From a virus, in IMG/VR virus record IMGVR_UViG_3300036766_000103, positions 1 to 23,636 of that record: a stretch of DNA of 23,636 nucleotides. The stretch is one strand, 5' to 3'. Positions 10,347-23,545 of the stretch are shown here, one piece after another; positions within the stretch are counted from its first letter, which is position 1, and every line of letters starts with the position of its first letter. The notes below the pieces were generated by a model, which saw nothing but the letters and a program-made list of their open reading frames with translations, was not told where the DNA came from and made no database searches. Position numbers and translations under genes: made by a program.

Positions 10347-10373
10347 ATTAACACTCTTTCCAGGCGGCATTTA

Positions 10374-10461
10374 CCACAACGTTCGCCGCACGGTTGATGA
10401 TGCGGCCTATAAAAACATAATCCTACGGTGCTGCCGCATTTTCAACCTGCGGCTGTTCTTT
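10374..10461 (-). repeat. attC-like site F
   Basis: On the + strand AAC (10378-10380) and GTT (10455-10457) flank arms 10385-10407 and 10433-10453. The arms are GCCGCA-c-GGTTGA..ATGCGGC against its complement, with one unpaired c. Spacers are GTTC on one side and T on the other. The site encodes the last codons (ending NAAAP) of the nuclease-like gene. Confidence 0.8.
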
Positions 10462-10929
10462 GGCACAGGACGTGCCATCTTCGATTATCTCTGGTATTTT
10501 GACATTCAGTGCATTGATGGCGGCGCTATCCTCAGAACTCAACACCGCTTTTCTCAATAAATGCAATGATCGTACAAATCGTTGTTCTGTAAGCCAGATG
10601 CCTTTGCAGTGTGCATAATGCTTGTGTGCCGTATCATTGAGCGGAATCACACGAAACGCCCATACGTCGGGGTTATAGATCGCAATAAAGCATGGTAGTG
10701 GGCCATCGACATATCCGTTTGCCAGTGCGACCAGTGCGCGATACGTTGCGTGATTCGTGTTTGGTTGGGCTGCGTTCTGGTGTTTGTATTCGACTAATGA
10801 GCACGGCCTTCCGTGGTTGTATTCCATCATCACGAAGTCAAGGTCAACAGCCGGGCAATTAAATCCCCAATGCCTATGCCGTTCACTAATGGAAGCATCA
10901 CGCCAACCAGTCCGCTCATAACTGCTCAT
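10423..10929 (-). CDS. PD-(D/E)XK nuclease-like protein
   Basis: The protein has 168 residues. HWGFNCPAVDLDFVMMEYN (residues 20-38) followed by SLVEYKHQ (44-51) gives D29/D31 and an E47-x-K49 pair, the spacing of a PD-(D/E)XK active site on two beta strands. The rest is unfamiliar. Start: ATG 10929 overlaps the stop of the ParB-methyltransferase gene as ATGA; the longer frame from 10980 lies inside that gene. Pairing with a methyltransferase in one cassette suggests a restriction-modification-like or DNA-processing pair, which is inference. The C-terminal tail (after about residue 145) is encoded by a small hairpin and attC-like site F and is probably not part of the fold. Confidence 0.55.
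   Translation of the reverse strand: MSSYERTGWRDASISERHRHWGFNCPAVDLDFVMMEYNHGRPCSLVEYKHQNAAQPNTNHATYRALVALANGYVDGPLPCFIAIYNPDVWAFRVIPLNDTAHKHYAHCKGIWLTEQRFVRSLHLLRKAVLSSEDSAAINALNVKIPEIIEDGTSCAKEQPQVENAAAP
10462..10476. repeat. AGGAC-loop hairpin, copy 1
   Basis: GGCAC and GTGCC flank a five-base AGGAC loop on the + strand. Copies with the same loop but different stems occur at 12416-12430 and 13952-13966. All three sit just upstream, in transcript sense, of an attC-like site. Confidence 0.5.
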
Positions 10930-12101
10930 AGCATCGCCCGCGCTTTTGCCTGCTTGACGTGTGCTGCGTCGATGTCGCATCCGACAAATCTTCGCCCAAG
11001 TGCTAATGAGACAACAGCCGTCGTTCCTGCGCCCAAAAACGGATCACAAATCAATTGTCCAGGTTTAGTCAATCGCTCCACGAGGTCGGCCATGCCACTT
11101 TCCGATTGTCCCCAATCATGGAACCGCTTGTCATTATCGTTCGGTTTCGACACAGCCACATCTCCAAACCATTCCACTGCATCACCAAAAAGGATGACGG
11201 GCTTCCACGATGTATTTACCTTCGCTTGCCACTGCTGAACCGCCTGCCCCCCTGGAGTCATGTACGCTAGCGTCCACCGATACCGTAGATGTTCGCATAG
11301 CCGGCGCATTACTTCCGGAAGATACGACTGCCCGCTCATCACGGCCACCAGTGGCACACCCGCCACCTTGCAGCCTTTGGCCAGTTCCGTGAACACCGGC
11401 AGGAATTTTTCTGGATACGGCGGGTCGGTTATTACAGCATCGGGCTTTATACCACTGGCGAACAGTTCCATGCATGAGCACACGCGCAAGTCACAGACGG
11501 ATTCGACACTTTCGCGTTTCGCTGCGGTGACGGTCTTCTGTGCGGCTGATAGATCGCGCTTGTCCTGCTCCGCCTTAATTTCTTTTTTGGCTTTGGCAAC
11601 AGACAGCTTACCCTGCTTTACTTTCTCGAACCTTTCAGGATCGGCGGCCTTGATTGCCTTTGCCGCTGAAACCAGTTTGCCGGAAATACCAACGGACTTG
11701 GCGGCCTGGTCGCGGGAACGCGCCTGCTCCCGTTGTGGGACATTTTCCACATCGGGCTTCGCGCCCTGTTTCAGAGTGGACAACTGCCTCTTCTTCGCCT
11801 CTTCCGCGAAGTGCGGCTCGATCTCAATTGCGAGTGCGATCTTCTGGCCCTTTTCCAGATGCCGCCGGGCAAGGTTTGCGCCGATGATAAAAGCGACTGG
11901 ACTATCGCCAGTGTATTCGGTGTAATGCGGTTCGACTCCGGCCAGTTTGCATGCAGCTATTCGATTGCGGCCATCAAGCAGCGTGTCATTTTGCCGAACG
12001 CAAGGATTAAGCAAACCTTCTTTTTTAATGCTGTCTGCCATCTCTTGCAATTCAGAGCTTGACAGCATCGGGAATAGTTGCGCGACGGGATGAGTTTTCA
12101 T
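10926..12101 (-). CDS. ParB-like domain fused to beta-class DNA methyltransferase
   Basis: The protein has 391 residues. Residues 1-115 form a ParB/Srx-like domain (LLDGRNRIAACKLAG near 41-55, ANLARRHLEKGQ near 75-86). A helix-turn-helix-like and Lys/Ala-rich linker follows to about 195. The methyltransferase domain has motif IV DPPYPE (226-231) and, later, SAM motif I CDPFLGAGTTAV (353-364); this order marks the beta class of N4-cytosine or N6-adenine methyltransferases. Such fusions are common in phages and modify phage DNA, often against host restriction. The start has an AAAGAGAAG ribosome site. It leads a two-gene cassette with the nuclease-like gene. Its 5' leader (12102-12240) holds a hairpin but no ORF. 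Confidence 0.85.
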   Translation of the reverse strand: MKTHPVAQLFPMLSSSELQEMADSIKKEGLLNPCVRQNDTLLDGRNRIAACKLAGVEPHYTEYTGDSPVAFIIGANLARRHLEKGQKIALAIEIEPHFAEEAKKRQLSTLKQGAKPDVENVPQREQARSRDQAAKSVGISGKLVSAAKAIKAADPERFEKVKQGKLSVAKAKKEIKAEQDKRDLSAAQKTVTAAKRESVESVCDLRVCSCMELFASGIKPDAVITDPPYPEKFLPVFTELAKGCKVAGVPLVAVMSGQSYLPEVMRRLCEHLRYRWTLAYMTPGGQAVQQWQAKVNTSWKPVILFGDAVEWFGDVAVSKPNDNDKRFHDWGQSESGMADLVERLTKPGQLICDPFLGAGTTAVVSLALGRRFVGCDIDAAHVKQAKARAML

Positions 12102-12171
12102 TTCTTCTCTTTCTTTTTATTCCAGTACGGCGTTTTGCACCATCTAAGTAAGATTGTCAATGTTTTTTCTT

Positions 12172-12190
12172 GCCCGGCACGATGCCGGGC
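12172..12190. repeat. GCATCGTGC-apex hairpin, copy 1
   Basis: GCCCGGCA and TGCCGGGC form an 8-bp perfect stem around a three-base loop in the leader of the ParB-methyltransferase cassette. The same apex with other stems occurs at 13385-13401 and 14557-14573. A-rich rather than T-rich sequence follows on the transcribed strand, so it is not a terminator. Confidence 0.6.
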
Positions 12191-12233
12191 TGCCTTGCCG
12201 CCGCCCTATGATTTCCAGAACGGCCAGCATTGC

Positions 12234-12367
12234 ATACAACGTCCCGGCTACGCTTGCAGTGCCGACTTAAAATCATCACACTGTAATACACCAGGACGAG
12301 CACACGATAATAGATAACGGTTACAATCTGGACAAATGCCAGGCATTGCAAGCTGGCCGTGTTGTGG
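12234..12367 (-). repeat. attC-like site A
   Basis: AAC (12238-12240) and GTT (12361-12363) on the + strand flank arms that read CGGC..GCTTGCA.TGCC on one side and its complement on the other (to 12360), with one extra base in the left arm. The loop is long. The site contains the last 37 or so codons of the radical SAM gene. Confidence 0.7.
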
Positions 12368-13438
12368 GATGTGCTGCGCTGATTCCTTAGTGTTCTGCGC
12401 GGGGCTCTTCGCCTTCGCACAGGACGTGCGTGTATTTGCCTTGTTATTAAAATCAATACATACATCGAGACAGTTTTTACTACAGATAGAATCGGAAAAG
12501 CAATCGTGACTTTCTGACCATGCCTTTCTCTCTTCTCTCATGCTCGGCCCTACTTTCCCTATCGCGTTACCTTGCTCCCGCATATAGATAATACACGGGA
12601 AATGATACCCTGCTGCTACGGCCATGTCATCCAAAACCAATCGGCAACGACTACAGTCTTTTTCTGTTAAACCCCGAACATGACGACCATTTCTTATGTT
12701 TGACACTCGATAGTTCAAGATTGGGTACTTCGACAAAAACGAATCCGAAAGACCTTCGAGTATAGAAAGCATTTTGTTAAACTGTGCCGAAGGAATAACT
12801 CGAATATCTGAAACTCCCAACGTATCAGCAAAAAGTATAGTGTCAAGGCATTTTTCAATATTGTCATCATTTACAACGATCCCGACAGTGGTATAAGTTT
12901 GGCTCGAAAGCCACTTGATATTTTCTGTTACCTTAAACCACGCACCATTTATTCCTCCGCTCATTCTGTCGGCAACTGAAGAGCAACACGCATCAAGTGA
13001 TACAGAAAAATCGTTTACCCCGGCCTTGATTAATTCCATATATACCGATTGTGATGCACTGCCGTTTGTTGATACTGCAATGCGTTTCACACCTGCGTTT
13101 TTGCATTCTGAAACAAGGGCTGTTGATCCCTTGTACAATGTAGGTTCCCCGCCTGAAAACCGAATGTTTTGTAATCCTTCTTTAGTCCATTGCCGCACTA
13201 TCGACAGTGCAACCTCGTAAGTCATTTCTCCTGAAATATCATTCCTTAATCCCCGGCAATACGGGCACTTGAAATTGCATCTATCTGTCAAGATTAATTC
13301 GCATCGCCAAAGCGGAGAGTGCTCGCTTGACTGCAATGCGCGAGAATCAGACAGGGTATAGAATCCGATGTCTTCTAATTTTCCCGGCGCACGATGCGCC
13401 GTATCTTGCCCCGCGCCTATAATTTCAGAATTTGCCAT
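12248..13438 (-). CDS. Radical SAM protein with SPASM-like C-terminal cysteines
   Basis: The protein has 396 residues. C54-x3-C58-x2-C61 (TDRCNFKCPYC) is the radical SAM 4Fe-4S motif, SGGEP (95-99) binds SAM, and STNGS and SLDAC strands follow. Later Cys pairs (CSRC, then CFSDSICSKNCLDVC) fit a SPASM/twitch auxiliary cluster domain, as in peptide-modifying or MoaA-like enzymes. The last 60 residues, including CPDC, overlap a hairpin and attC-like site A and are probably tail. Start ATG 13438 uses AGGAG supplied by the GTT core of site B. It is alone in its cassette. No clear precursor peptide gene is beside it, so the substrate is unknown. Confidence 0.85.
   Translation of the reverse strand: MANSEIIGAGQDTAHRAPGKLEDIGFYTLSDSRALQSSEHSPLWRCELILTDRCNFKCPYCRGLRNDISGEMTYEVALSIVRQWTKEGLQNIRFSGGEPTLYKGSTALVSECKNAGVKRIAVSTNGSASQSVYMELIKAGVNDFSVSLDACCSSVADRMSGGINGAWFKVTENIKWLSSQTYTTVGIVVNDDNIEKCLDTILFADTLGVSDIRVIPSAQFNKMLSILEGLSDSFLSKYPILNYRVSNIRNGRHVRGLTEKDCSRCRLVLDDMAVAAGYHFPCIIYMREQGNAIGKVGPSMREERKAWSESHDCFSDSICSKNCLDVCIDFNNKANTRTSCAKAKSPAQNTKESAQHIPQHGQLAMPGICPDCNRYLLSCARPGVLQCDDFKSALQA
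12416..12430. repeat. AGGAC-loop hairpin, copy 2
   Basis: CGCAC and GTGCG flank AGGAC on the + strand. Both outer pairs differ from copy 1 while pairing is kept, which points to selection on structure. It lies inside the 3' part of the radical SAM gene. Confidence 0.5.
13385..13401. repeat. GCATCGTGC-apex hairpin, copy 2
   Basis: CGGCGCA and TGCGCCG pair around CGA on the + strand. It lies in the first codons of the radical SAM gene, so residues of its N-terminal extension are encoded by this repeated leader element. Confidence 0.55.
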
Positions 13439-13443
13439 ATTGC

Positions 13444-13583
13444 TCCTAACGTTTCGTAAATGGGTGAAGTAAATGGCGTGGGTTACTCGATACGAACAGG
13501 TGATTGCACTTCACCCACGCTTGACAATGCAAATACTCTTCGTACCATAATAGCCATTTATTTCATCCCTTTGCGAGTTGTGC
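13444..13583 (-). repeat. attC-like site B
   Basis: AAC (13448-13450) and GTT (13577-13579) flank arms CGTAAA-t-GGGTGAAGTAAATGGC and a complement ending at 13575, with one extra t in the left arm. The loop holds an inner stem GCGTGGGT/ACCCACGC. The final codons (LAKG, stop) of the 66-residue gene lie inside it, and its GTTAGGAG core gives the radical SAM gene its ribosome site. Confidence 0.85.
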
Positions 13584-13763
13584 GTCTGTACCGGCTCCGC
13601 TCAACGGTTTTCCTGCGGCACGATCTTCGAGCGTTTGTGAGATAGCGTCAATATCTACCTCTGCAATACCGCTTCCAAAAGCACGGCCTTCCATAATATC
13701 ACTTGCCATACGAAATGTAATAGTGTGTTCCTCAAAATCAACCGCGAATACTTGTAATTTCAT
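13563..13763 (-). CDS. Hypothetical cassette protein, 66 residues
   Basis: I do not recognise it. It begins MKLQVFAVDFEEHTITFRMA, a beta-strand-like start, then an acidic helix (DIDAISQTLEDRAA) and a Gly-rich end. The ribosome site is GAAAGG with reasonable spacing to ATG 13763. It is the only gene between sites C and B. Whether it could serve as a peptide substrate for the radical SAM enzyme encoded next is untested; it has no Cys and no obvious leader/core layout. Confidence 0.6.
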   Translation of the reverse strand: MKLQVFAVDFEEHTITFRMASDIMEGRAFGSGIAEVDIDAISQTLEDRAAGKPLSGAGTDAQLAKG

Positions 13764-13799
13764 TCGTGCCGCCTTTCAATGGCCGGAGCCGGTATTGCG

Positions 13800-13907
13800 T
13801 CACAACGTTTCGCAAACGGGTGCAGTAGCTTTATAATAATATTCCGCGTGCCTGCTTTTAGGGACACGCGGCTACCACAAGCTATTGCATCCCTTTGCGT
13901 GTTAGGT
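13800..13907 (-). repeat. attC-like site C
   Basis: AAC (13804-13806) and GTTAGGT (13901-13907, an exact GTTRRRY box) flank arms CGCAAA-c-GGGTGCAGTAGCTT and its near complement, with one extra c in the left arm. The inner loop folds as CCGCGTG/CACGCGG. It is the clearest site of array 1 and lies wholly between genes. Confidence 0.85.
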
Positions 13908-13944
13908 GTCTGTTTGCCGCCATTTCCATAGTGTCTTGTCGCCG

Positions 13945-14190
13945 CTATTCCAGCGCAGGACGCGCTCTTTCTGTTCCTCTTTTTTCTCTGTCGTATTTAA
14001 TCATAGCCATAGCACTTCTTGACTGTATTTTTCTTGCGAATACGGCGCAAGCTGAGGTTTCTTGTCTCATTTTAATTCCATCGACAGTTCCATTGATATA
14101 TCCAAGTACGTCTTTTTCAAATTTACTAAAAACAGCGCGTTCCCCTTCTGTTGACAACTCTAATTCCATTGGGTCAAATATAGGCTTCAT
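13945..14190 (-). CDS. Hypothetical cassette protein, 81 residues
   Basis: I do not recognise it. ATG 14190 is preceded by AAAGGAG (14197-14203); the in-frame ATG at 14217 lacks one. The sequence is helical and charged (FEKDVLGYINGTVDGIKMRQETS) and has a MIKYDREKRG end. The last codons (RARPALE) are encoded by the AGGAC-loop hairpin. It overlaps the upstream zinc-finger gene by 17 bases, so the two form one cassette. Confidence 0.65.
   Translation of the reverse strand: MKPIFDPMELELSTEGERAVFSKFEKDVLGYINGTVDGIKMRQETSACAVFARKIQSRSAMAMIKYDREKRGTERARPALE
13952..13966. repeat. AGGAC-loop hairpin, copy 3
   Basis: AGCGC and GCGCT flank AGGAC on the + strand. Third member of the family, again just upstream of an attC-like site (C) and inside the 3' end of a gene. 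Confidence 0.5.
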
Positions 14191-14611
14191 AAGTTTCTCC
14201 TTTAATAATTTTATCAAAAACGTCTCTATTAAAATTTCTTTTTTTAACGAGTCTACTTAGTGCCAATACTCGCTTTATCATTTTTAATGGTTCCCCATTT
14301 ATACAATATTTGCGTAACGATAGATATTCTTTTCTTTTTGGATTTTCATACTCTTTCGCAGCATATCTTCTTTGTTTTTCTGGATTGTTCTTACTCCATT
14401 CATTTCTATACTGCTTTAAATGCTGGATATTTTTTAACCTCCACTTAGAATACGAGGACTTTGCATGATATTTTTTTTTGCATTTTTTACAACAAAATAT
14501 TGCAGATATACGTTTATGCGAAATGTCAGAGTTACATCTTTTGCATTTTCTTTCTTGGCCGCACGATGCGGCCTTCTTGTCTTGCGGCGATCTATCAATA
14601 TATGTTTTCAT
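14174..14611 (-). CDS. Zinc-finger protein, possible HNH/homing-type nuclease relative
   Basis: The protein has 145 residues. C-x2-C in RKCKRCNSDI (residues about 22-31) and a further C-C-x2-C in FCCKKCKKKY (about 39-48) form a small zinc finger like those at the start of HNH and related phage proteins. A strongly basic region (WRLKNIQHLKQYRNEW, QRRYAAKEY) follows. I see no clear HNH catalytic triad, so nuclease activity is not claimed. Start: ATG 14611 is chosen over GTG 14626, which is inside site D. The N-terminal 18 residues are encoded by a repeated leader and hairpin (14557-14573). Confidence 0.6.
   Translation of the reverse strand: MKTYIDRSPQDKKAASCGQERKCKRCNSDISHKRISAIFCCKKCKKKYHAKSSYSKWRLKNIQHLKQYRNEWSKNNPEKQRRYAAKEYENPKRKEYLSLRKYCINGEPLKMIKRVLALSRLVKKRNFNRDVFDKIIKGETYEAYI
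14557..14573. repeat. GCATCGTGC-apex hairpin, copy 3
   Basis: GGCCGCA and TGCGGCC pair around CGA on the + strand. Compared with copies 1 and 2 the outer pairs change together while the apex is constant. It lies in the first codons of the zinc-finger gene. Confidence 0.55.
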
Positions 14612-14624
14612 GGCGGCAAATTGC

Positions 14625-14696
14625 ACCTAACGTTTCAGCAATGGCCGCTGGCCGCGTCTTTTTCTTCTGCGGCTTGCGTGCCTTGCTGTGTTGCAT
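14625..14696 (-). repeat. attC-like site D
   Basis: ACCTAAC (14625-14631, exact RYYYAAC box) and GTT (14690-14692) flank arms CAGCAA-t-GGCCGC and a near complement ending CTTGCTG-T. About 60 bases from 14634 are almost identical to site E. The last codons of the upstream membrane protein gene, including its stop, lie in it. Confidence 0.85.
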
Positions 14697-14952
14697 GATG
14701 TGTTTTTACACCTTCAATAATGTATTGCCGCGCTTCTTCGCTCTGTAAATACTCAACGGCTGATTTTACGGTAAACCGTTTTGATCGTCCGAGCGCAAAA
14801 AGTATTACTAAAATGGTAACACAAAGATCAATAAGCCAAGACCCGTTGCAATACTTGTGATTAAGAAACCAAAGTGCAAACAAAATCCCGAACGTGTAAC
14901 TATCGGTTACTATGCTCTGAAAAACGGTTTCGTAAATTCGGATCACCTTCAT
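14635..14952 (-). CDS. Small membrane protein with attC-encoded tail
   Basis: The protein has 105 residues and two predicted membrane helices (about 21-35, FGILFALWFL, and 41-55, LIDLCVTILVILFALG). The rest is a charged cytoplasmic-type helix. The last 18 or so residues (ending AAEEKDAASGHC) are encoded by site D and match the tail of the next cassette's protein. GGAGG six bases before ATG 14952 gives strong translation. Function is unknown; small membrane proteins in phage accessory regions are sometimes holin-like or exclusion proteins, without evidence here. Confidence 0.7.
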   Translation of the reverse strand: MKVIRIYETVFQSIVTDSYTFGILFALWFLNHKYCNGSWLIDLCVTILVILFALGRSKRFTVKSAVEYLQSEEARQYIIEGVKTHHATQQGTQAAEEKDAASGHC

Positions 14953-15002
14953 TTTATTCCTCCTGCGCGGCTATAAATTTGCCTTACGTGTAAAAACATT
15001 TC

Positions 15003-15074
15003 ATGCAACGGTTCAGCAATGGCCGCTGGCCGCGTCTTTTTCTTTTGCGGCTTGCGTGCCTTGCTGTGTTGTTT
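15003..15074 (-). repeat. attC-like site E
   Basis: AAC (15007-15009) and GTT (15068-15070) flank the same arms as site D, with one or two base differences over about 60 bases. Such identity suggests recent duplication, or spread of one cassette type. The GTTGCAT core begins the leader of the downstream membrane protein gene. Confidence 0.85.
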
Positions 15075-15267
15075 GCTGTGGCGCAGATTCAATAGTGTCT
15101 TGCCGCGCCGGTTGATTAACAACACCATTGATAATTAACTTTTCAATATTTCCTGGATAATTGCTGGTGTGATTAATAACGGTATGTTTGGTGCCAACAT
15201 GATACCCTGCAAAAAATGCAACAGCAATACACATCAAAACAGAAACTAATTGAACATCGAATGACAT
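15013..15267 (-). CDS. Small membrane-anchored protein with attC-encoded tail
   Basis: The protein has 84 residues, with one N-terminal membrane helix (about 5-22, VQLVSVLMCIAVAFFAGY) and a polar outer or inner region with Asn/Gln-rich sequence. The final 18 residues (ending AAKEKDAASGHC) come from site E and differ by one residue from those of the neighbouring cassette. AGGAGG precedes ATG 15267 with good spacing. The body is not similar to the neighbour, so the shared tail comes from the shared attC and not from common descent of the proteins. Confidence 0.7.
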   Translation of the reverse strand: MSFDVQLVSVLMCIAVAFFAGYHVGTKHTVINHTSNYPGNIEKLIINGVVNQPARQDTIESAPQQTTQQGTQAAKEKDAASGHC

Positions 15268-15312
15268 TTAACCCTCCTGCGCGGCATTATAAATAAGACT
15301 CTGCGCCATTGC

Positions 15313-15375
15313 AAACAACGTTTTGCGGTATGCCTGACGTGCTGCTTTGAGCATGTTAGGCTACCGCTGTTGTAA
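15313..15375 (-). repeat. attC-like site G
   Basis: AAC (15317-15319) and GTT (15369-15371) flank GCGGTA-t-GCC and GGC-TACCGC, again with one extra base in the left arm. The inner loop folds as TGCT/AGCA. It is short (55 bases core to core). The last codons of the zinc-ribbon gene are inside it. Confidence 0.75.
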
Positions 15376-15592
15376 GCTGTTCGGCCTCTTCCATAGCTTT
15401 CTGCCGCGCCTCTTCACTTGCATTTTCAAGGCACCGCTCACAAGGCTCAACTGTAACTTGCGGATATTTACGATTGCGAGAGGCACGAGTATCCGATTGA
15501 TTACATAACCCCGCACCGCAACGGGCACAGAACACTTCAAAATCAACGTCAACTTCCACATCCATATTCACAGTAGTTTGAAACGATGGCAT
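15356..15592 (-). CDS. Zinc-ribbon protein of the first cassette
   Basis: The protein has 78 residues. CARCGAGLC and PCERC give four or five Cys placed as a zinc ribbon, followed by an acidic helix (ENASEEARQKAMEEAEQL). Start ATG 15592 has AAAGGA at good spacing; the longer TTG frame from 15628 reads through the leader. It is the first cassette behind the promoter at 15929-15957. Cassette ends carry inverted copies of GTTGTAAGC. Function unknown; a nucleic-acid or protein adaptor role would be typical for such ribbons. Confidence 0.65.
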   Translation of the reverse strand: MPSFQTTVNMDVEVDVDFEVFCARCGAGLCNQSDTRASRNRKYPQVTVEPCERCLENASEEARQKAMEEAEQLTTAVA

Positions 15593-15643
15593 TTTATTTC
15601 CTTTCTTGGCGCGGCCTATAATTTCCAAAAGAGGCCGAATTGC

Positions 15644-15650: not shown

Positions 15651-15675
15651 TACCTATTATATGTACCGGCACAAT

Positions 15676-15921: not shown

Positions 15922-15928
15922 ATATACT

Positions 15929-15957
15929 AATATACTCTATTCCGGTTATGCTGTCAA
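15929..15957 (-). promoter_or_regulatory. Consensus sigma70-type promoter heading array 1
   Basis: On the minus strand TTGACA (15957-15952), exactly 17 bases, then TATATT (15934-15929). It overlaps the last codons of the NinG-like gene. It would transcribe the 81-residue gene and the whole cassette array to the terminator at 9955. Confidence 0.8.
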
Positions 15958-16407
15958 TACTTTTCTTTTTAATTCTTTATTTTTTTTTCTGTATTCTTCA
16001 ATCTGATATTCGATCCACGGAATAGAGACGTTCGACCGTATCGAGCCAAGTCTTTTCAGTGTCTCAGCGGTTCCCTTGCCGTACTTCCGATCTATCGCCA
16101 GCCCGTGCTCGTACTGCTCGCCTGACCGAAATCGGTTACACCTCAGACATTGTGCATTTACGTTCTTTTCATCCCAGCGGGTTGCTTTTCTATCCCGTGG
16201 GATAAAATGACCTGCATCACATTCCTTCCACGGGAACGACCTACCGCACGTAATACACCTGCACATTCCGTTTTTATCAGCGTCACGCAGCCGGATATAC
16301 ACTGAAAAAATACGATCCAAAGAAGCTATCAGCTTGGGCAAAGACTTCTTCGGTATCTTCGGGAAAGCTAAGTATTGATCTACGGTCATTTCGTTTTTAA
16401 ATTTCAT
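15946..16407 (-). CDS. NinG/Rap-like recombination protein
   Basis: The protein has 153 residues. SLDRIFSVYIRLRDA (29-43), CRCITCG (49-55), CDAGHFIPRDRKATRWDEKNV (from 63) and QCLRCNRFRSGEQ (86-98) match NinG: zinc Cys pairs at C51/C54 and C87/C90, with H67 in the AGHF motif as in HNH-type folds. Lambda NinG (Rap) is a Holliday junction and branched-DNA nuclease that aids recombination. Length is in range though shorter than lambda's. The start overlaps the upstream gene as ATGA. It ends the replication operon, and its last codons contain the array promoter. Confidence 0.85.
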   Translation of the reverse strand: MKFKNEMTVDQYLAFPKIPKKSLPKLIASLDRIFSVYIRLRDADKNGMCRCITCGRSFPWKECDAGHFIPRDRKATRWDEKNVNAQCLRCNRFRSGEQYEHGLAIDRKYGKGTAETLKRLGSIRSNVSIPWIEYQIEEYRKKNKELKRKVLTA

Positions 16408-16616
16408 CCGATTATACTCTCCTCAATCGCTCGTTTACGATCTGTAATAATAAACTCATCCTTGATGTATACCGTGATGTCAGTAATGTCCTCGAAACTG
16501 TCAAGCATCACCTGGGATACTTCTCTGTCACGCCTCGGCATGATCTCATTGATGAATTGAGATCGCTTCGGGTATTTGTTAACGTAATAATGACCAGCAA
16601 GTAACGTAGCCATCAT
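16404..16616 (-). CDS. Hypothetical phage protein, 70 residues
   Basis: I do not recognise it. It begins MMATLLAGHYYVNKYPKRSQFINEIMPRRDRE and has a beta-rich second half (ITDITVYIKDEFIITD). ATGA overlaps link it to both neighbours, so it is a true member of the replication operon. Confidence 0.65.
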   Translation of the reverse strand: MMATLLAGHYYVNKYPKRSQFINEIMPRRDREVSQVMLDSFEDITDITVYIKDEFIITDRKRAIEESIIG

Positions 16617-16795
16617 TTACCTTTCATCTGTAAATATATTTCATCGCGCATAAGTTTTTCCTTTATTATCCGCAACTCCCCGCGTACCTCGTCCCTGAAA
16701 TCATCCGGTAGCTCAGGATCATTTGCAATAGATACCAGCTCAGATAATTTCGGCTGCGCTGGTAGCTTTTGCAGGTGACGAAGGTATTTATCCAT
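16613..16795 (-). CDS. Hypothetical phage protein, 60 residues
   Basis: The supported start is ATG 16795, which overlaps the end of the Cys-rich gene by 8 bases; the longer frame to 16993 is a shadow of that gene. The product is helical and charged (starts MDKYLRHLQKLPAQPKLSEL). Function is unknown. ATGA coupling to the next gene supports expression. Confidence 0.6.
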   Translation of the reverse strand: MDKYLRHLQKLPAQPKLSELVSIANDPELPDDFRDEVRGELRIIKEKLMRDEIYLQMKGK

Positions 16796-17024
16796 TAGGT
16801 TTATCAACCGAAAAACATTCAAGAGCCTTGTTTTCGCTGCCTCTGTTTTCACAATCAACCGTACACTTTTCACAACCTCCGATAATTCTATACGCTGGCT
16901 CACACTCGTCCGGACAAGAGTCGCATAAGAACAAATCATCTTTCGAGCACCCACAGCTTTCTCCGCATAAACCATCAAAACCGTTGATCTCAAGATACTT
17001 TTTAACTATTTCTTTTACGGTCAT
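16788..17024 (-). CDS. Cys-rich phage protein, 78 residues
   Basis: It starts MTVKEIVKKYLEINGFDGLCGESCGC and carries about ten Cys, including C-x2-C pairs (CDSC, CEKC). This layout (VKKYLE-x-NGFDGL then Cys pairs) recurs in hypothetical proteins of phage genomes and implies metal binding. GGAGGT precedes the ATG, which overlaps the helicase stop as ATGA. Role unknown. Confidence 0.65.
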   Translation of the reverse strand: MTVKEIVKKYLEINGFDGLCGESCGCSKDDLFLCDSCPDECEPAYRIIGGCEKCTVDCENRGSENKALECFSVDKPNG

Positions 17025-18319
17025 TTTATACCTCCATACGGGTCATTGTGATTATAAAATTTACTCATTCGTAAATCTGCCAGAATTTTAAACCGTGCTC
17101 CAGAGAGTCCATATCGCTGCTCGACCAAAAGACTTATTTCCGGTAATTGATACGATCCATCCGCTGCATAGGGTAATTCGCTACGATGAGGATTGTGCAT
17201 AGTAATAATACAATCGGCATTTTCTGGGATTCCCTGAGACTCTTTGAAATAACTCATATTCGGCATTTCGCCATCAGTAAGTTTTTCTGCCTCTCCCCTT
17301 AACTGGCTCAGAACAATCATAGCTACGTTTAATTCTCTACTCATATCCGCCAGTGATTTTGATAAAGCCTCGACCTCTCGCACCCTGTCTTTTCTTAAAT
17401 CAATATCGTGCATTCTTTGAATGTAATCAACTATCACCACATCCACGGGCTTTCTATTTTGCAGTTCTACCAGCCTTGCACGTAACTCAGGTGCGGACTT
17501 CTCTCTGATAATCGTCCAGTCCAAATCATTCAGCTTACCCAGCGATCCTTGCACCTTTGCCATATTCTCAGGTGATAATTTCCGGCCAAGTAAGTGACTG
17601 TCGATCTCTGCATAATTAGATAACGCACAAATATTCAACTGCGTCTGGTTCATTTCTAAAGAGTTCCAGACTACACCGGCACCCTGTTCCTTGAGCTGAA
17701 TTGAAAGCCAGACAGAAAATAAACTTTTTCCGGTCTTTTTTAACGCTCCCACGGCGTACATCTTACCCTTTTCGATTCCGCTTGTGTATCGGTCGAACTC
17801 TTGTAATCCAGTTTTATATCCAAGCGTCTCACGGCCTGTCTCATTGCCCTTTATGATTAAATTACTCAACGTCAGAACAGCCTCGTGATGATCGTATTTT
17901 GTATCTTGATTCTTCAGGAGTATCTTACTCGCTCCCTCTTGTACACGCCTGACAATCTGCTCCGGTGTTAAATCCTCATCCTCATAGGTCGTGGCTGCTG
18001 AAAAAACAGTCTTTGCAATTTCTCTTTGCTGCCAAAGAGTATGAAGCTCTGCAATTACCTTTGGGTTGCTACTCCCTGCCTCTTTTAGTGCGTCATGGAT
18101 CTCGTTCTCGAAGCCAGTAGACTGTAAATAAACCGGATCGACTTCACCTGTTTTATTCCAACAATCAATCATCGAGATAAAAAGATTCTTCCGGTTTCCT
18201 GTGAAGTAATCCGGTAGTAGATCGGGTAGAAACCTTCTCGATACCAGCATCTTTGAAAGAATAATATTTTCAAGCTGGATGTTCCCAGCTTCAAGAAATT
18301 TATTTAGCCAGGTGCTCAT
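17021..18319 (-). CDS. Replicative DNA helicase, DnaB-like
   Basis: The protein has 432 residues. An N-terminal helical domain (to about 130) resembles the DnaB N-domain. The RecA-like C-domain has YKTGLQEFDRYTSGIEKG, Walker A GALKKTGKSL (191-200; canonical DnaB has Pro/Gly at 194-195, here Lys/Lys), an E-containing WNSLEM motif (218-223), Walker B VVIVDY (294-299) and SQLRGEAE (H3-like). It unwinds DNA at the fork. It overlaps its neighbours by ATGA and follows a loader and initiator, the classical phage replication order. Confidence 0.88.
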   Translation of the reverse strand: MSTWLNKFLEAGNIQLENIILSKMLVSRRFLPDLLPDYFTGNRKNLFISMIDCWNKTGEVDPVYLQSTGFENEIHDALKEAGSSNPKVIAELHTLWQQREIAKTVFSAATTYEDEDLTPEQIVRRVQEGASKILLKNQDTKYDHHEAVLTLSNLIIKGNETGRETLGYKTGLQEFDRYTSGIEKGKMYAVGALKKTGKSLFSVWLSIQLKEQGAGVVWNSLEMNQTQLNICALSNYAEIDSHLLGRKLSPENMAKVQGSLGKLNDLDWTIIREKSAPELRARLVELQNRKPVDVVIVDYIQRMHDIDLRKDRVREVEALSKSLADMSRELNVAMIVLSQLRGEAEKLTDGEMPNMSYFKESQGIPENADCIITMHNPHRSELPYAADGSYQLPEISLLVEQRYGLSGARFKILADLRMSKFYNHNDPYGGIK

Positions 18320-18588
18320 TCAATCCCCTGACGATATGGGTTGCTTTTTATAATTCTATACTCGTAAGCATCAGAATTTCTTTTAATGTGCTGCGAAAAA
18401 TATGTTGTGTTATTTCTTTTCATCGGTGGACAATTTTTGTGAGCATCACCCATTGCGTTATTCTTCAATCTCTGGCCGCATTTTATACAGTGCCGTGGCA
18501 TAAAATGAAAGTCGTCGGCTCTTTCGACTTCTTTCTTCCCATGCTCAACAAGGGTAGTTATTTTTTTTAATACGGTTTTGTCTATCAT
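18316..18588 (-). CDS. Small protein with C-x2-C motif between loader and helicase
   Basis: The protein has 90 residues. RHCIKCGQRL gives one C-x2-C, with a later NCPPM Cys as possible third ligand; a basic C-terminal part follows. Start ATG 18588 follows GGAAG; a TTG two codons earlier overlaps the previous stop. Its place in the replication operon suggests a DNA-binding accessory role, not shown by the sequence. Confidence 0.55.
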   Translation of the reverse strand: MIDKTVLKKITTLVEHGKKEVERADDFHFMPRHCIKCGQRLKNNAMGDAHKNCPPMKRNNTTYFSQHIKRNSDAYEYRIIKSNPYRQGIE

Positions 18589-18590
18589 AC

Positions 18591-18824
18591 TCAATATACT
18601 TCCGGTGGATGAGGTAGTATTTTAGGAATTACCTTTATCGCTGCCGGCGCTGGGAAAAACTTATCTTCAGAGTTCTTAATGTGCCTGTTCAAAGCAGAAT
18701 TAAATTCTTCTGCGGTATGTTTTTTGAATAACTCGTACCATACTTTCGACTGAGTTTTATTAAACTTCTTTTCGTAGAACTCAAGGAACCACCGTATCTC
18801 TTTAAGAAATTCTTCTTGTGTCAT
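18591..18824 (-). CDS. Probable helicase loader/inhibitor, G39P-like
   Basis: The protein has 77 residues. It has the look of the N-terminal domain of SPP1 G39P and related loaders: an all-helical start (FLEFYEKKFNKTQSKVWYEL), then ALNRHIKNSEDKFFPAPAAI, where the FFP-x-x-A motif is typical. Position between initiator and DnaB-like helicase supports it. The ATGA overlap with the initiator indicates coupled translation. Distant similarity, so moderate confidence. Confidence 0.55.
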   Translation of the reverse strand: MTQEEFLKEIRWFLEFYEKKFNKTQSKVWYELFKKHTAEEFNSALNRHIKNSEDKFFPAPAAIKVIPKILPHPPEVY

Positions 18825-19573
18825 AGAGAAGCTCTTTCTTCAGGTGATATTTTATTCATTCCTACTCCTATTTTTCCTTCATTCCACCGGAGTCTTAGCG
18901 TACTCATAGAAAGAATATTAGTTTTCCAAGTGAACCCTGATTTTGTCGGTAGCATATCGTGACATTCATTTATCAGGGTTTTTATATCTTCAAGTGATCT
19001 ATTGTCCCGTTCTACCATTAAACGAACTTCTTTATCCCACTCAAGTTTTTTCTTTTCATCAACCTTTATTTGCCGGATTTCAAGAACTCTTTTTAAAAGC
19101 AAGTCGGTAAGCTCACGATGCTCTTGTATTATTTCCTTCCCCTTCTTATCCCCTTCTTTAAGAGAAGAATTATTATTATCAATTACAATTTCATTTTCAT
19201 TTTCAGGCGGTAATACCACGGTATTACCACGGTTATTCCACCGTAAAGCTATTTTTTCTCTTTGTTTTTGACAGAAGGATTCTCTGCAATCTATTGATTT
19301 TTTTAACCAAGAGATATAATAACAACCATTATTTTCAATCATTATTAGCTTCAAAGACGGCCAACATTCATCAAAATCCTTACCTAAAATCTGTTTTATC
19401 GTATCAACTGGTATACCATCCGGTAATACCGTGGTATTATTCTCGTTTTTGGAACAAAACTTTCTCTGGGCTTGAATGAAATCAAAGTAAGCACCTCTTT
19501 GAAGTCTATTCATGTGTGATACATCCCTTGATGCGTCACCATCATAGAAAAGAAATGCGGGGTCTTTGCTCAT
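18821..19573 (-). CDS. Phage replication initiator, DUF1376-like N-terminus
   Basis: The protein has 250 residues. The start MSKDPAFLFYDGDASRDVSHM and NRLQRGAYFDFIQAQ (about 22-36) match YdaU/DUF1376-type replication proteins, with a winged-helix-like region to about 105. An Asn/Ser/Glu-rich linker follows, then a helical C-domain ending FTWKTNILSMSTLRLRW, as in DnaD/replisome organiser proteins. Start ATG 19573 is chosen because the 19 codons before it read through a palindrome. Two palindromes within the gene (19209, 19422) may be origin sites, as lambda carries ori inside O. Confidence 0.75.
   Translation of the reverse strand: MSKDPAFLFYDGDASRDVSHMNRLQRGAYFDFIQAQRKFCSKNENNTTVLPDGIPVDTIKQILGKDFDECWPSLKLIMIENNGCYYISWLKKSIDCRESFCQKQREKIALRWNNRGNTVVLPPENENEIVIDNNNSSLKEGDKKGKEIIQEHRELTDLLLKRVLEIRQIKVDEKKKLEWDKEVRLMVERDNRSLEDIKTLINECHDMLPTKSGFTWKTNILSMSTLRLRWNEGKIGVGMNKISPEERASL
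19209..19228. repeat. Palindrome in replication initiator gene, copy 1
   Basis: GGTAATACC and GGTATTACC are 9-base inverted arms two bases apart. A further CCACGGT-type repeat follows directly (to about 19243), giving three near copies at 11-base steps. Possible initiator binding site. Confidence 0.55.
19422..19440. repeat. Palindrome in replication initiator gene, copy 2
   Basis: GGTAATACC, two bases, then GGTATTAT repeats copy 1 about 213 bases away. Finding the same palindrome twice in one gene is unlikely by chance and suits a binding site for the encoded initiator or a repressor. Confidence 0.5.
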
Positions 19574-19663
19574 AGTGACACCGCAAGGCTGCTCCCGTGG
19601 AGAATCTGGCGAAACGTCACGGGAGCACACGGGGTTGCCGTGCTGCCTGCGGATTAGTTAAAT
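19574..19663. repeat. Imperfect palindrome before initiator gene, possible decayed attC
   Basis: TGCTCCCGTG and CACGGGAGCA form a perfect 10-bp stem, and outer CCGCA..GGC..GC arms also pair. At 19657 the + strand has GTTAAAT, an exact GTTRRRY box. The opposite box is absent (GACAC where AAC is expected). It forms the 5' leader of the initiator mRNA, so it could also be a regulatory structure. Confidence 0.45.
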
Positions 19664-19683
19664 GTCGTTATGGAATGCCAGTT

Positions 19684-19932: not shown

Positions 19933-19937
19933 GATGT

Positions 19938-20099
19938 TTACTCATACTCACCTACCTTAATATTTCCCCACTGGTCAATGATACGATAACTCTTACACGA
20001 TGTATCCATTATTACAATTTCTTTGCGCTTGCATCCATTACCATGGTCATTATAGTAGCATTTTGTTTTGGTACATATTACTTCAGGGCTTTTGGTCAT
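19938..20099 (-). CDS. DUF1540-like Cys-rich small protein
   Basis: The protein has 53 residues. ICTKTKCYYNDHGNGCKRKEI then TSCKSY places four Cys as C-x4-C-x8-C-x10/11-C with the YN after the second Cys and an I-x-I strand, as in DUF1540 proteins. Start ATG 20099 overlaps the stop of the nucleotidyltransferase gene as ATGA, strong evidence that it is real. It likely binds a metal; role unknown. Confidence 0.65.
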   Translation of the reverse strand: MTKSPEVICTKTKCYYNDHGNGCKRKEIVIMDTSCKSYRIIDQWGNIKVGEYE

Positions 20100-20557: not shown

Positions 20558-20970
20558 TATTCTATCCCGTATCGAGTGTAAAAGTCCTGCCATCCTTGAT
20601 CTTCTGGACTTGGTAAATAAATACCTTGCTCGTGCATCATATCCTGTTTGATCTTATCTAAATACTCAGTAAACTGCTTTGTGTCAAGTGATCGTGTTCT
20701 CGGAGTAATGCTTACCTCTTGGCCGAATATTTCCTTGTGCTGCCATGCAAGATATTTCCCTTTGAAGTATTCATGTAGGTCCTGTTCGGCTTGTCCTGTT
20801 TCGTCATGGATGCACCTGAGCCAAAGCCAATACAATCTGTTGGCTGCAAGACTCCTCTGCTGCCGATAAATCTTAAAGTCACCGATGAATTTCTTTTTAT
20901 CAACATCGACCTGTTGTATTCTCCGGATAAACTCATCACGGGATTTATTGTCGGTTATGAGCATTCGCAT
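20557..20970 (-). CDS. NinB-like recombination protein
   Basis: The protein has 137 residues. RQQRSLAANRLYWLWLRCI (36-54) and a C-terminal TEYLDKIKQDMMHEQGIYLPSPEDQGWQDFY pattern recall NinB/YbcN-type phage proteins, which in lambda (Orf) load recombinase by acting with SSB. Similarity is in general layout, so moderate confidence. It starts 26 bases inside the upstream gene. A second ATG two codons later is possible. Together with the NinG-like gene it completes a lambda-like recombination accessory set. Confidence 0.6.
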   Translation of the reverse strand: MRMLITDNKSRDEFIRRIQQVDVDKKKFIGDFKIYRQQRSLAANRLYWLWLRCIHDETGQAEQDLHEYFKGKYLAWQHKEIFGQEVSITPRTRSLDTKQFTEYLDKIKQDMMHEQGIYLPSPEDQGWQDFYTRYGIE

Positions 20971-21157
20971 GAGTTGTTTCCTTGGCTATGGTCTGTTGCA
21001 CCCATTCATCCTGCGCTCTGTAGCTGTACTGGTCAATGACAGGTTCTACCAGCTTCGGTGGCTCAGGTTTCTCTTGGAATCCACAATACCCAAGGATAGA
21101 AGCGCCACAGGAGCCGTCTTTGCGAACCTCACAAGGTTTTGTATAGGTACATTTCAT
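20945..21157 (-). CDS. Small Cys-containing phage protein
   Basis: The protein has 70 residues. The first 25 contain CTYTKPC and SCGASILGYCGF, four Cys placed for one metal site. The rest is a Pro/Glu linker and a Gln-rich end. ATG 21157 overlaps the YopX-like stop as ATGA. No family recognised. Confidence 0.55.
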   Translation of the reverse strand: MKCTYTKPCEVRKDGSCGASILGYCGFQEKPEPPKLVEPVIDQYSYRAQDEWVQQTIAKETTHANAHNRQ

Positions 21158-21336
21158 ATTCCAATATCACTTACTAAATAAAATTCGTTTTTAATTTTCA
21201 TAATTACGTCTATCATTTCCGTATATCCTGAATCTTTTGTCCCGTATCCATAATTCTCATCGAAATAAAAACGAACAATATCTCCGACAAATAGTTCATT
21301 GCCATCCCGATCTTTGTATCCAGTAGATTCTTTCAT
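21154..21336 (-). CDS. YopX-like protein
   Basis: The protein has 60 residues. TGYKDRDGNELFVGDIVRF (5-23) is the YopX signature (TG-x-x-D-x-x-G-x-x-x-x-x-GDIV), found in many phage accessory genes of unknown role. The family is usually longer, so this is a short form. Its ribosome site AGGAG is part of the GTT core of attC-like site J, eight bases before the ATG. Confidence 0.75.
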   Translation of the reverse strand: MKESTGYKDRDGNELFVGDIVRFYFDENYGYGTKDSGYTEMIDVIMKIKNEFYLVSDIGI

Positions 21337-21345
21337 TTGTTTTTC

Positions 21346-21402
21346 TCCTAACGTTCGCTGTTATGCGTCGTGCCGCTCATCGGCATGAAGGCGCTGTTTG
21401 CA
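21346..21402 (-). repeat. attC-like site J
   Basis: AAC (21350-21352) and GTT (21396-21398) flank CGC..TTATGC and GCATGAAGGCG arms (8 of 11 paired) with an inner TGCCG/CGGCA stem. Short, 49 bases core to core. It contains the end of the 86-residue gene. Confidence 0.65.
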
Positions 21403-21621
21403 CCACACATCAAAATCTGGCATCTCGTGATGTGGCGTAGCGTCGCTCGCCCAATCGTGATATACTGCCAGCGCCGTCGCATAGCGGCTGTTGGTGGGCT
21501 GTGTTTGCACACCTTCCAAGCTCTTGATGGCGGCTTCCCATGCGTATTTGTAAAGATACGCATCATCATTTATACACGGGAGCCTGTCACTCCACCACTC
21601 ATCGAATGTTTTTGCCGTCAT
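21361..21621 (-). CDS. Hypothetical cassette protein, 86 residues
   Basis: I do not recognise a family. It begins MTAKTFDEWWSDRLP and contains many Trp, Tyr and His (AYLYKYAWEAAIKSLEG, YHDWAS, DVWCKQRL). The FDEWW start followed by a WEAA helix is a pattern I associate with small phage proteins of unknown role. Its last codons (about ADERHDA) lie in site J. It is the only gene between sites K and J. Ribosome site AAAGG precedes the start at a somewhat long distance. Confidence 0.6.
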   Translation of the reverse strand: MTAKTFDEWWSDRLPCINDDAYLYKYAWEAAIKSLEGVQTQPTNSRYATALAVYHDWASDATPHHEMPDFDVWCKQRLHADERHDA

Positions 21622-21653
21622 ATATTAACCTGCCTTTCGTGTGGCGTTATTGC

Positions 21654-21741
21654 CTGCAACGTTTGCGCAACGCCCGAAGGCTGCGCCTATAATCCCAATT
21701 CCATAGTGACCTGCGCAGCTTTTGGGCTTGCGCTGTTGTTT
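21654..21741 (-). repeat. attC-like site K
   Basis: AAC (21658-21660) and GTT (21735-21737) flank GCGCAA-c-GCCC-g-AAGGCTGCGC and a nearly perfect complement (21711-21733), with an extra c in the left arm. Spacers GTTT and T. One of the two best-paired sites. It encodes the last 17 or so codons of the methyltransferase. Confidence 0.88.
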
Positions 21742-22421
21742 GCTGTACCACGGCCTTCCGAAGTGTTCTGCGCGCCGTCTTGGTTTTGTCCGAATAAATC
21801 CTGCTGCGCGATTAAGTTAGCATATCTTTGCTGCGCGATCTTGATGTATTCTTCGTCTTTGTCAATACACAAGAACCGCCGCCCTGTTTTGTGACACGCC
21901 AGCGCGGTGGTGCCGGAACCACAAAACGGGTCGATAATTAAATCGCCGGGCTTTGAATAATTCATCAGGCACCAAACAAAAAGAGCGACCGGCTTTTGCG
22001 TTGGGTGGCACCTGCCATCGGTTGTCACGTTTACAATATTCATACTAAAAATACGAGAGACATCATCAAAACTTGTCCACGCATATTCACAATCTGCGTA
22101 GCTGTTCCCGTGTATTGTCTTGTCCCAAACAAGAAAACATCTGCACGGAGAAACGTTGAAATAATTACCACCCCATACGATACTATTTTTTGCTTTTGAA
22201 ATGCACAAGGAAAGATGTTCATCCGAAACCGGCTTTGTGTCCCAACAATCCGCACGATAATATTTTTTTTCTGTTTTTGATGTGCCGTTTATAAATTTTA
22301 CAGAACTTGCCCCAATACCATACGGTGGATCGGTAAGGCAAAGATCGAATGCCTTGTCTTGTATTTCGCGCAGCACTTCGATTGAATCCGCGCAGATAAA
22401 TGTATTTGGTTCTATTTGCAT
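21687..22421 (-). CDS. Beta-class DNA methyltransferase (N4/N6)
   Basis: The protein has 244 residues. Motif IV DPPYGIG (31-37) precedes HPTQKP (139-144) and SAM motif I DPFCGSGTT (164-172), the beta-class order. HPTQKP plus the DPPYGIG form point to adenine-N6 or cytosine-N4 transfer on DNA. No target-recognition domain is obvious; the middle is short. Start ATG 22421; the 31 codons before it read through a cassette leader and a palindrome. It has a cassette to itself with no nuclease, as phage antirestriction methylases do. The tail after about residue 205 is Gln/Asn-rich and partly attC-encoded. Confidence 0.85.
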   Translation of the reverse strand: MQIEPNTFICADSIEVLREIQDKAFDLCLTDPPYGIGASSVKFINGTSKTEKKYYRADCWDTKPVSDEHLSLCISKAKNSIVWGGNYFNVSPCRCFLVWDKTIHGNSYADCEYAWTSFDDVSRIFSMNIVNVTTDGRCHPTQKPVALFVWCLMNYSKPGDLIIDPFCGSGTTALACHKTGRRFLCIDKDEEYIKIAQQRYANLIAQQDLFGQNQDGAQNTSEGRGTANNSASPKAAQVTMELGL

Positions 22422-22471
22422 TTTCTTTTGTCTTTCGGCGCGCCTATGAATTTCAAAGGCCGTGGTATTGC

Positions 22472-22549
22472 GTACAACGTTTGCGCTATGCTGACGTGCC
22501 GGTTCCTCCGGCATGTGGCTTTAGCCCTTGCAGCATGGCGCTGTTGGCG
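22472..22549 (-). repeat. attC-like site L
   Basis: AAC (22476-22478) and GTT (22543-22545) flank GCGCTATGCTG and CAGCATGGCGC, with an inner TGCCGG/CCGGCA stem. Spacers GTTT and T. One mismatch replaces the usual extra base. It encodes the end of the 63-residue gene. Confidence 0.8.
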
Positions 22550-22712
22550 GTACGTTTGCCGCCGCTCCGCTGTTTGCAGCGCGTTTCTTTGTAAACGTAA
22601 GTTCTATTTTTACCGATTCATACTCCCCGCTTGAAAATAATCCCGCTATTCCGTTGGCTATAAACTGCGGAGAAAATTCTTTTATTAATTTTTCATTCTG
22701 TTCTTTATCCAC
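22521..22712 (-). CDS. Hypothetical cassette protein, 63 residues
   Basis: No family recognised. The body (MDKEQNEKLIKEFSPQF start, then ESVKIELTFTKKR) is about 44 residues; the remaining tail (ending PPTAPCCKG) is encoded by site L and its border. PPTAP recurs in the tail of the 62-residue protein at 23253. It shares a cassette with the 112-residue gene upstream. Confidence 0.55.
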   Translation of the reverse strand: MDKEQNEKLIKEFSPQFIANGIAGLFSSGEYESVKIELTFTKKRAANSGAAANVPPTAPCCKG

Positions 22713-22755
22713 GCGCTGCCTCCTTAAATGGTCGACGGCTAATTACCAATTTTCA

Positions 22756-23094
22756 TTAGCAGTAAAACTCCATATAGTGAGAATCTCTATCTTCCTCTGT
22801 TGACCAAATAGCCGCGAGCAAATCTCCCCATGCACGATAAGAAAAAGTTGCCGAAGTTCCGTCGCTAAATACAGGTGCACCTTCGGGATCTTTTTGGTGC
22901 CAAGGGCCACACTCCTTGATGCCACGTTTGATTATATCTGCACGCAACGCCTCGATATACGGATAAGCGCTTTCTTTCCAGGCACCAAGATATTCGCCCC
23001 ACCGCATACCTTCCTTGAAAAAACCACCAAGGCCGCCGAATGCAATAGGCAACTTATCAGCCTCGGTATAACTAACCCACTTGACAACATCCAT
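22756..23094 (-). CDS. Hypothetical cassette protein, 112 residues
   Basis: No family recognised. The sequence is rich in Trp, Gly and Tyr (FGGLGGFFKEGMRWGEYLGAW, ECGPWHQKDPEG) and ends with DRDSHYMEFYC, unlike the other tails because no attC-like site follows directly. GGAGG precedes ATG 23094. A WGDLLAAIW helix suggests a compact folded domain. First gene of a two-gene cassette. Confidence 0.6.
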   Translation of the reverse strand: MDVVKWVSYTEADKLPIAFGGLGGFFKEGMRWGEYLGAWKESAYPYIEALRADIIKRGIKECGPWHQKDPEGAPVFSDGTSATFSYRAWGDLLAAIWSTEEDRDSHYMEFYC

Positions 23095-23143
23095 ACTACC
23101 TCCATGAAAATTGGCCTACAAACTCGCTCTCGCAGGCCATTTT

Positions 23144-23305
23144 GTGCAACGTTTGCGCTAAGCAAGATGTTTCCGCTCTAAATAAGCCCACAATGTTCCG
23201 ATAACGTGACGGTCATTCTCAGTTAGACGATGCCCCGAAAAACTGTCACGAATTACCTTTTCACATTCCGACAGTGGCGGAAATTTCTTGCTGGCGCTGT
23301 TGGTG
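23144..23305 (-). repeat. attC-like site M
   Basis: AAC (23148-23150) and GTT (23299-23301) flank GCGC..AGCAAGA..TTTCCGC and its complement ending at 23297, with one extra base in the left arm. At 154 bases core to core it is the longest; the loop holds no ORF that I can support, only a CTGTC/GACAG stem. The gene upstream ends inside it. Confidence 0.85.
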
Positions 23306-23441
23306 GGAGTGCCGCTTGCGCTTCAATAATTTTCAGCGCCGCCTTCGCTACGCTGACTGCATTTGGATGGAACCCACCATATTTTTTTGCCGGCGAATCT
23401 GCGATATATTTCAAACCATCTATTATTTCTTGGCGGCGCAT
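23253..23441 (-). CDS. Hypothetical cassette protein, 62 residues
   Basis: No family recognised. It begins MRRQEIIDGLKYIADSPAK, helical, with a VAKAALKIIEAQ helix. The tail (PPTAPARNFRHC) is read from the arm of site M. GAAAGG precedes the start. The body of about 45 residues may be a small helical DNA- or protein-binding module. Confidence 0.55.
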   Translation of the reverse strand: MRRQEIIDGLKYIADSPAKKYGGFHPNAVSVAKAALKIIEAQAALPPTAPARNFRHCRNVKR

Positions 23442-23469
23442 ATAATAATCCTTTCAAGCAAGCGGTTTA

Positions 23470-23545
23470 CACCAACGTTTGCCAAACGGTTGCAGTAGCG
23501 ATACTATACTGGTTCCTCGCTATTGTCAACATTTGGCTGTTGTAC
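23470..23545 (-). repeat. attC-like site N
   Basis: AAC (23474-23476) and GTTGTAC (23539-23545) flank GCCAAA-c-GGTTGCAGTAGCGA and its near complement, with the extra base at the usual place. Spacers GTTT and T. The left arm resembles sites B and C of array 1. Encodes the end of the partial gene at the right edge. Confidence 0.85.
23501..23529 (-). promoter_or_regulatory. Possible promoter inside attC-like site N
   Basis: TTGACA (23529-23524) is followed by TAGTAT at 17 bases or TATAGT at 15. Neither pair is ideal. If active it would transcribe array 2 from within the site. Confidence 0.3.

Follow-up and report, generated by a model that had tools for sequence, protein, structure and literature searches.

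Integrase-less clusters of attC recombination sites have been described in virulent phages, where they carry methyltransferase cassettes and are functional in an IntI1 assay (Qi et al., 2023; PMC9892861). The structure of attC sites, their strand choice and their taxon-specific types have been documented as well (PMC6393395; PMC8352920; PMC9668308). The IMG/VR virus record IMGVR_UViG_3300036766_000103, a linear fragment of 23,636 bases analysed here over its full length (the window), bears twelve imperfect palindromes that run from AAC to GTT. We favour, with moderate confidence, the view that these represent a so far undescribed type of attC-like recombination site, forming integrase-less arrays in tailed phages and recombined in trans by an integron-type integrase; the integron-like character of the arrays is itself well supported. 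The original prediction, made from the sequence of the window alone, held that no described phage carries such arrays. This is outdated by the 2023 report, though the clusters exemplified there hold about 2-4 sites, compared with up to about 20 in phages carrying the hairpin family of the window. Neither this family nor breakpoints at both of its boxes were found described in the literature searched.

The phage clusters of attC sites lacking integron integrases (CALINs) in TJE1, P12002L, PH101 and MW202573 (Qi et al., 2023; PMC9892861) resemble the window in their arrays of gene-end hairpins, the lack of intI, their methyltransferase cassettes and their occurrence in tailed phages. They differ in that the attCs of TJE1 fit a canonical covariance model (R1), whereas a model of the window-type hairpins (R2) matches none in TJE1, P12002L and MW202573 (in the part covered). 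Chromosomal attCs of Vibrio (Vibrio cholerae repeats, VCR) and Shewanella share with the window a stem that is paired immediately inward of the R box and a long variable loop, but the Shewanella sites inspected have a 3/3 spacer and intI nearby, against a 1/4 spacer in the R2 family. Class 1 attCs (59-base elements) are alike in their AAC/GTT ends, their better bottom-strand fold and a stop codon in or near the site; they differ in having about 8 unpaired bases per side between the boxes and an L box of the TCRAGCCGAC type. Repetitive extragenic palindromic (REP) and IS200/IS605 elements are similar to the extent that they too are imperfect hairpins of single-stranded DNA and move as DNA strands; unlike them, the window family is bounded by AAC and GTT and stands in ordered gene arrays, and no cognate HUH nuclease was seen.

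All twelve palindromes are present as predicted, and every one is oriented as the genes of the minus strand. With a palindrome scoring scheme devised for this analysis, seven window sites reach an anchored score of at least 12 and four a score of at least 14, against 0.5 and 0.05 expected from dinucleotide shuffles. The left-end motif AACGTTTSNSMWA occurs 11 times (2.0 expected), a number reached in no shuffle, and an independent covariance model recovers 11 of the 12 sites. The asymmetric spacers held up too: the GTTT-like spacer against one base on the plus strand corresponds to A against AAAC in gene orientation. The placement at gene 3' ends stood for most sites, as the stop codon of a same-strand open reading frame (ORF) lies inside 10 of the 12; none is contained in the site at 13804-13903, whose nearest stop lies 42 bases upstream at 13945, or in that at 23474-23541, where the contig ends before a complete ORF. 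A module start, GTTGTACGCAAT, is conserved 3' of most hairpins, for example at 22475-22440 (minus strand), often followed by TATAGGAGCGC and ATG, and is possibly a promoter or ribosome-binding leader borne by each module.

The sites fall into array 1 (seven sites, 10378-15371) and array 2 (five sites, 21350-23541), each with same-strand genes between its sites, as in integrons and CALINs (at least 2 sites within about 4 kb). A replication module at 15946-19630 (NinG, a DnaB-like helicase and a DnaD/O-like initiation protein) lies in between. The major capsid protein, head protease, portal and large terminase are encoded at 966-9454, with PHROG matches down to E 1e-75, and place the contig in the Caudoviricetes. 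The claim that two arrays flank the replication core of a tailed phage was thus confirmed by the site positions and by the capsid, terminase and helicase matches. Because the contig is a linear fragment, array 2 may extend past the end of the window.

The R2 model was built from 28 sites of other phages, none of them from the window. Alignments made by MAFFT at natural loop length left the arms unaligned, so that short-loop sites were used for the models, and further array contigs were reached by exact-pattern scans of IMG/VR. R2 matches 11 of the 12 window sites, all on the minus strand (E 4.6e-9 to 1.7), and nothing else in the window; no other match was obtained in 336 kb of other loci, including the TJE1, class 1 and Vibrio loci. 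In a set of array-bearing contigs it gave 88 matches at E<=0.1, clustered and nearly all same-strand. Outside the window, two or more matches are found in each of at least 11 contigs, and a single one in two further contigs. The largest array is in G001, a 213-kb myovirus-like genome with about 20 sites at 4040-12144, a stretch higher in G+C than the remainder. Since the carriers are tailed phages of several types with unrelated terminases and portals, the arrays have spread across phage groups. The shared design comprises the AAC/GTT box, an unpaired spacer of 1 versus 4 bases, a 6-bp stem, a bulged further stem and a variable loop. This family is separate from canonical attC and occurs in at least a dozen unrelated phages. 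Rfam at gathering thresholds matched nothing. DnaB-based searches and searches based on G001 genes gave no additional phages, and the loci L218, L219, L221 and L222, which a left-arm pattern scan returned alongside G001, were rejected as chance matches.

Two bacterial genomes, to which two different centre genomes led, each have a lone family hairpin just 3' of a same-strand gene (G044, C14:103635-103713, L291; G987, C158, L304:136-223), so the sites exist outside phages. The R2 search of about 1,000 possible host genomes from three phyla gave matches in these two only, though few candidates were scored per genome and the negatives weigh little. No integron integrase was found in either genome; a tyrosine recombinase of G987 (100.7 bits over half the model) was set aside, as on reading it has no IntI insert motif.

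Comparison between phages locates the points of exchange. The gene body of the AAIKSLEGVQTQPTN family occurs once each in the window and G001, and G007 has two copies of it. Over the 45 nt leading up to AAC these copies share 92-100% identity, but since each bears another hairpin, the figure drops past AAC to 43% and then to 23%. Six hairpin pairs show the reverse: their ends are 96-100% identical, but beyond AAC and GTT the flanking sequence is close to the random level; G001, for instance, has the hairpins found at 14629 and 15007 behind a different gene. Modules are therefore joined not only at GTT, which integrons predict, but at AAC as well. The expectation that sister phages would differ exactly at the GTT cores was borne out by module-precise exchange there, with AAC breakpoints in addition, and the hairpins probably mark where phages trade genes. 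Because the reading frames of many genes extend past AAC into the hairpin, swaps at AAC also replace protein tails, some of which are zinc-ribbon-like. A constant reading frame across AAC is not general, the phases being 35/20/24. In G001, long hairpins at 4330-4442, 5010-5129 and 7046-7162 encode similar zinc-ribbon-like tails on three different upstream genes.

In classical cassette movement the gene and its attC travel together, and a joint at AAC is not predicted; IntI cuts the attC R box between G and TT. The AAC breakpoint suggests that the second box is also usable or that hairpins are replaced independently, through which one gene body would obtain different hairpins and C-terminal tails. 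It is conceivable, though we hold it only tentatively, that the system is distinct from classical integrons, in that a gene body reaching from GTT to AAC and a hairpin reaching from AAC to GTT are separate modules, both boxes are cut and tails are swapped.

Near-identical hairpins with unrelated flanks on both sides, together with the lone hairpins behind single same-strand genes in the two bacterial genomes, could also be produced by a small mobile element of the REP or IS200/IS605-end type, moved as single-stranded DNA by a nuclease, inserted after genes and accumulating as arrays. Such an element is unlikely, as the gene bodies too are precise shared units between different hairpins, the arrays are dense with nearly all matches per contig on one strand, the GTTGTACGCAAT start is conserved after the hairpin in many modules, and no nuclease gene common to the carriers was found.

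An integron-type integrase acting in trans on folded bottom strands would be the most economical reading of these data; beyond the comparative breakpoints, we infer the whole mechanism. The bottom strand would become single-stranded during phage replication or entry and then fold into the hairpin. Cutting at the GTT box would fall to a tyrosine recombinase of integron-integrase type that the host or a co-infecting element provides. In this way phages could acquire, lose and reshuffle cassettes encoding methyltransferases, Lar-like and radical SAM proteins and small proteins, with exchange among themselves and perhaps with a host integron.

Several results weigh against this reading. Gene and hairpin travel apart in most of the pairs compared. 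IntI is absent from the window contig (no TIGR02249 match), as the intI check proposed with the original prediction revealed, and the arrays do not make up a complete integron, an attI site not having been searched for. None of the sister and carrier contigs encodes an integron integrase; only G010 has a tyrosine recombinase, which is Xer-like and was rejected as the missing enzyme, since it scores 22 bits with TIGR02249 where the cut-off is 265. R2 matches none of 80 bacterial intI loci, and 80 intI-bearing viral contigs gave it one marginal, unconvincing match only. Neither an excised circle nor a recombination event has been observed. With regard to the boxes, attC R boxes read RYYYAAC and GTTRRRY; AAC and GTT are invariant in 28/28 training sites and 12/12 window sites, but the common box GTTGTAC deviates from GTTRRRY at one base. 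Finally, the attC covariance test proposed earlier was run with a surrogate, R1, built from 24 proteobacterial sites adjoining intI in bacterial genomes, and no site matched: with filters off, R1 hits 0/12 window sites (best E 3.3, away from any site) and nothing in 710 kb of sister phages, which include 88 R2 sites.

The same test bears on the possibility that these are ordinary canonical-attC cassettes that, like those of the published phages, were acquired from the chromosomal integron of a bacterium. The overall plan is like that of the phage attC clusters, methyltransferase cassettes included (PMC9892861), and attCs are strongly divergent between taxa (PMC8352920). R1 nevertheless finds known sites: class 1 and chromosomal attCs are detected, known arrays score E 1e-12 to 1e-6, the TJE1 attCs E 3e-4, and even the weakly scoring Vibrio and Shewanella attCs 0.02-0.1 (Vibrio 0.02). 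The window sites are missed because their layout differs, with one base after AAC, four before GTT and then an immediate 6-bp stem. Among 83 canonical sites, 70 lack such a stem and none has the 1/4 spacer, their spacers being symmetric. Capture of canonical cassettes is accordingly improbable. The attC identity that had been claimed survives in part: same-strand arrays, AAC/GTT ends, the spacer, the strand bias and exchange at the cores are integron-like, while membership in a known attC type failed. By the test available here, the sites are integron-like in action and lie outside the canonical attC family.

The hairpins appear to act as DNA. They fold imperfectly with an unpaired spacer and extrahelical bases (z-scores -2.9 to -5.5), as do attC sites. 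The anchored stems contain 290 Watson-Crick pairs and 4 G.T pairs (1.4%), compared with 30% G.T in control or chance stems; for this count, sites were anchored at their right end and could qualify through Watson-Crick or G.T pairs. This near-absence of G.T pairs points to DNA rather than RNA hairpins. Stem base identities vary freely while Watson-Crick pairing is kept, and the covariation score of 0.578 exceeds that of shuffled (0.177) and slid (0.08-0.13) controls, a score biased toward structure by the preselection of its sites for pairing. Of 91 sites, 67 fold better as bottom strand than as top strand (p 7e-6), compared with 74 of 83 canonical attCs. Terminators and RNA structures were rejected because G.T pairs are lacking. 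RNA-level elements of this kind (terminators or processing hairpins), which ordinary homologous recombination would have passed among phages and made uniform, are a very improbable source of the arrays. The position at gene 3' ends and a short conserved sequence that could seed recombination speak for them, but the consensus has no T run and the breakpoints are abrupt at a three-base core.

The array genes comprise two DNA methyltransferases, a radical SAM protein, a weakly Lar-like protein and small proteins of unknown function, all on the minus strand as are the hairpins. The 3' end of array 1 is formed by an 80-nt hairpin at 10378-10457 (R2 24.4 bits, E 0.001) that holds the stop of a 185-aa gene body at 10423-10980. 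The latter is without a Pfam match and makes up one module with a ParB-like/N6_N4 DNA methyltransferase of 391 aa (10926-12101). A 126-nt hairpin at 12238-12363 (palindrome scan; R2 E 0.0015) follows, with the 396-aa radical SAM protein at 12248-13438. The 132-nt hairpin at 13448-13579, with a 1/4 spacer and 5/6 stem pairs, is the one missed by R2; its neighbour is a 66-aa ORF of unknown function (13563-13763). Next come a 100-nt hairpin at 13804-13903 (R2 E 0.004; DNA fold z -4.9, plus strand) and two overlapping ORFs of 90 and 150 aa, likewise unknown, at 13945-14626. Two 64-nt hairpins then stand close together: 14629-14692, about 97% identical to 15007-15070 and to G001 7373-7436, belongs to a 105-aa ORF (14635-14952) with the hairpin-encoded tail ATQQGTQAAEEKDAASGHC, and 15007-15070 (R2 match, DNA fold) to an 84-aa ORF (15013-15267) with the tail TTQQGTQAAKEKDAASGHC. 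The last site of array 1 is a 55-nt hairpin at 15317-15371 (R2 43.2 bits, E 6.9e-9), accompanied by a 90-aa ORF at 15356-15628 whose weak similarity to Lar (restriction alleviation) is under the Pfam cut-off. The gene directly beyond array 1, at 10104-10370, is itself Lar.

The 3' end of array 2 is a 143-nt hairpin at 21350-21492 (palindrome scan; R2 E 0.028), joined to the 86-aa ORF at 21361-21621 (DEWW...AAIKSLEGVQTQPTN) that recurs with other hairpins in G001 and G007. An 80-nt hairpin at 21658-21737 (R2 E 2.7e-7; DNA fold), 93% identical to G009 15103-15182, accompanies the N6_N4 DNA methyltransferase of 275 aa (21687-22514). The 70-nt hairpin at 22476-22545 (R2 E 4.6e-9) matches G017 12518-12587 at about 93% identity although the flanks of the two are unrelated, and stands with two ORFs of 63 and 112 aa that form one module (22521-23094). 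They are followed by a 154-nt hairpin at 23148-23301 (palindrome scan; R2 E 1.7), a 62-aa ORF at 23253-23441 and, close to the contig end, a 68-nt hairpin at 23474-23541 (R2 E 4e-7; DNA fold). The cassette gene at 22748-23111 has a 63% identical copy at G001 15991-16355, outside the main array of that genome, which perhaps represents the gene before or after cassette capture. Amid the phage head genes, a small minus-strand protein at 5035-5445 is ferritin-like by eye and without a PHROG match.

Integron integrases were encountered in other viral contigs. In KX853513 (L036; Virus Rctr41k, a phage from a methane-oxidising enrichment), the stretch 4680-10097 contains the gene of a protein annotated only as integrase-like that is an integron integrase with 45% identity to IntI1; after it come no fewer than four attC-like sites along with two methyltransferase genes. 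In IMG/VR, 270 viral contigs encode integron-integrase relatives, so that intI appears common in phage contigs; most of the 80 listed (L041-L120) are 46-61% identical to IntI1.

Because sites of the R2 family fall outside a canonical model, searches with such models probably undercount cassette arrays in phages and bacteria. One gene body occurs with four different hairpins, and one hairpin occurs next to unrelated genes, with the joints precisely at AAC, so that the joining step has left readable traces. A system of two-box modules, if true, would offer a natural way for genes to acquire attC-like sites. The DNA methyltransferases carried as cassettes may counter host restriction. If an integrase is found, phages would be large carriers of mobile cassettes, with about 20 in one 213-kb genome.

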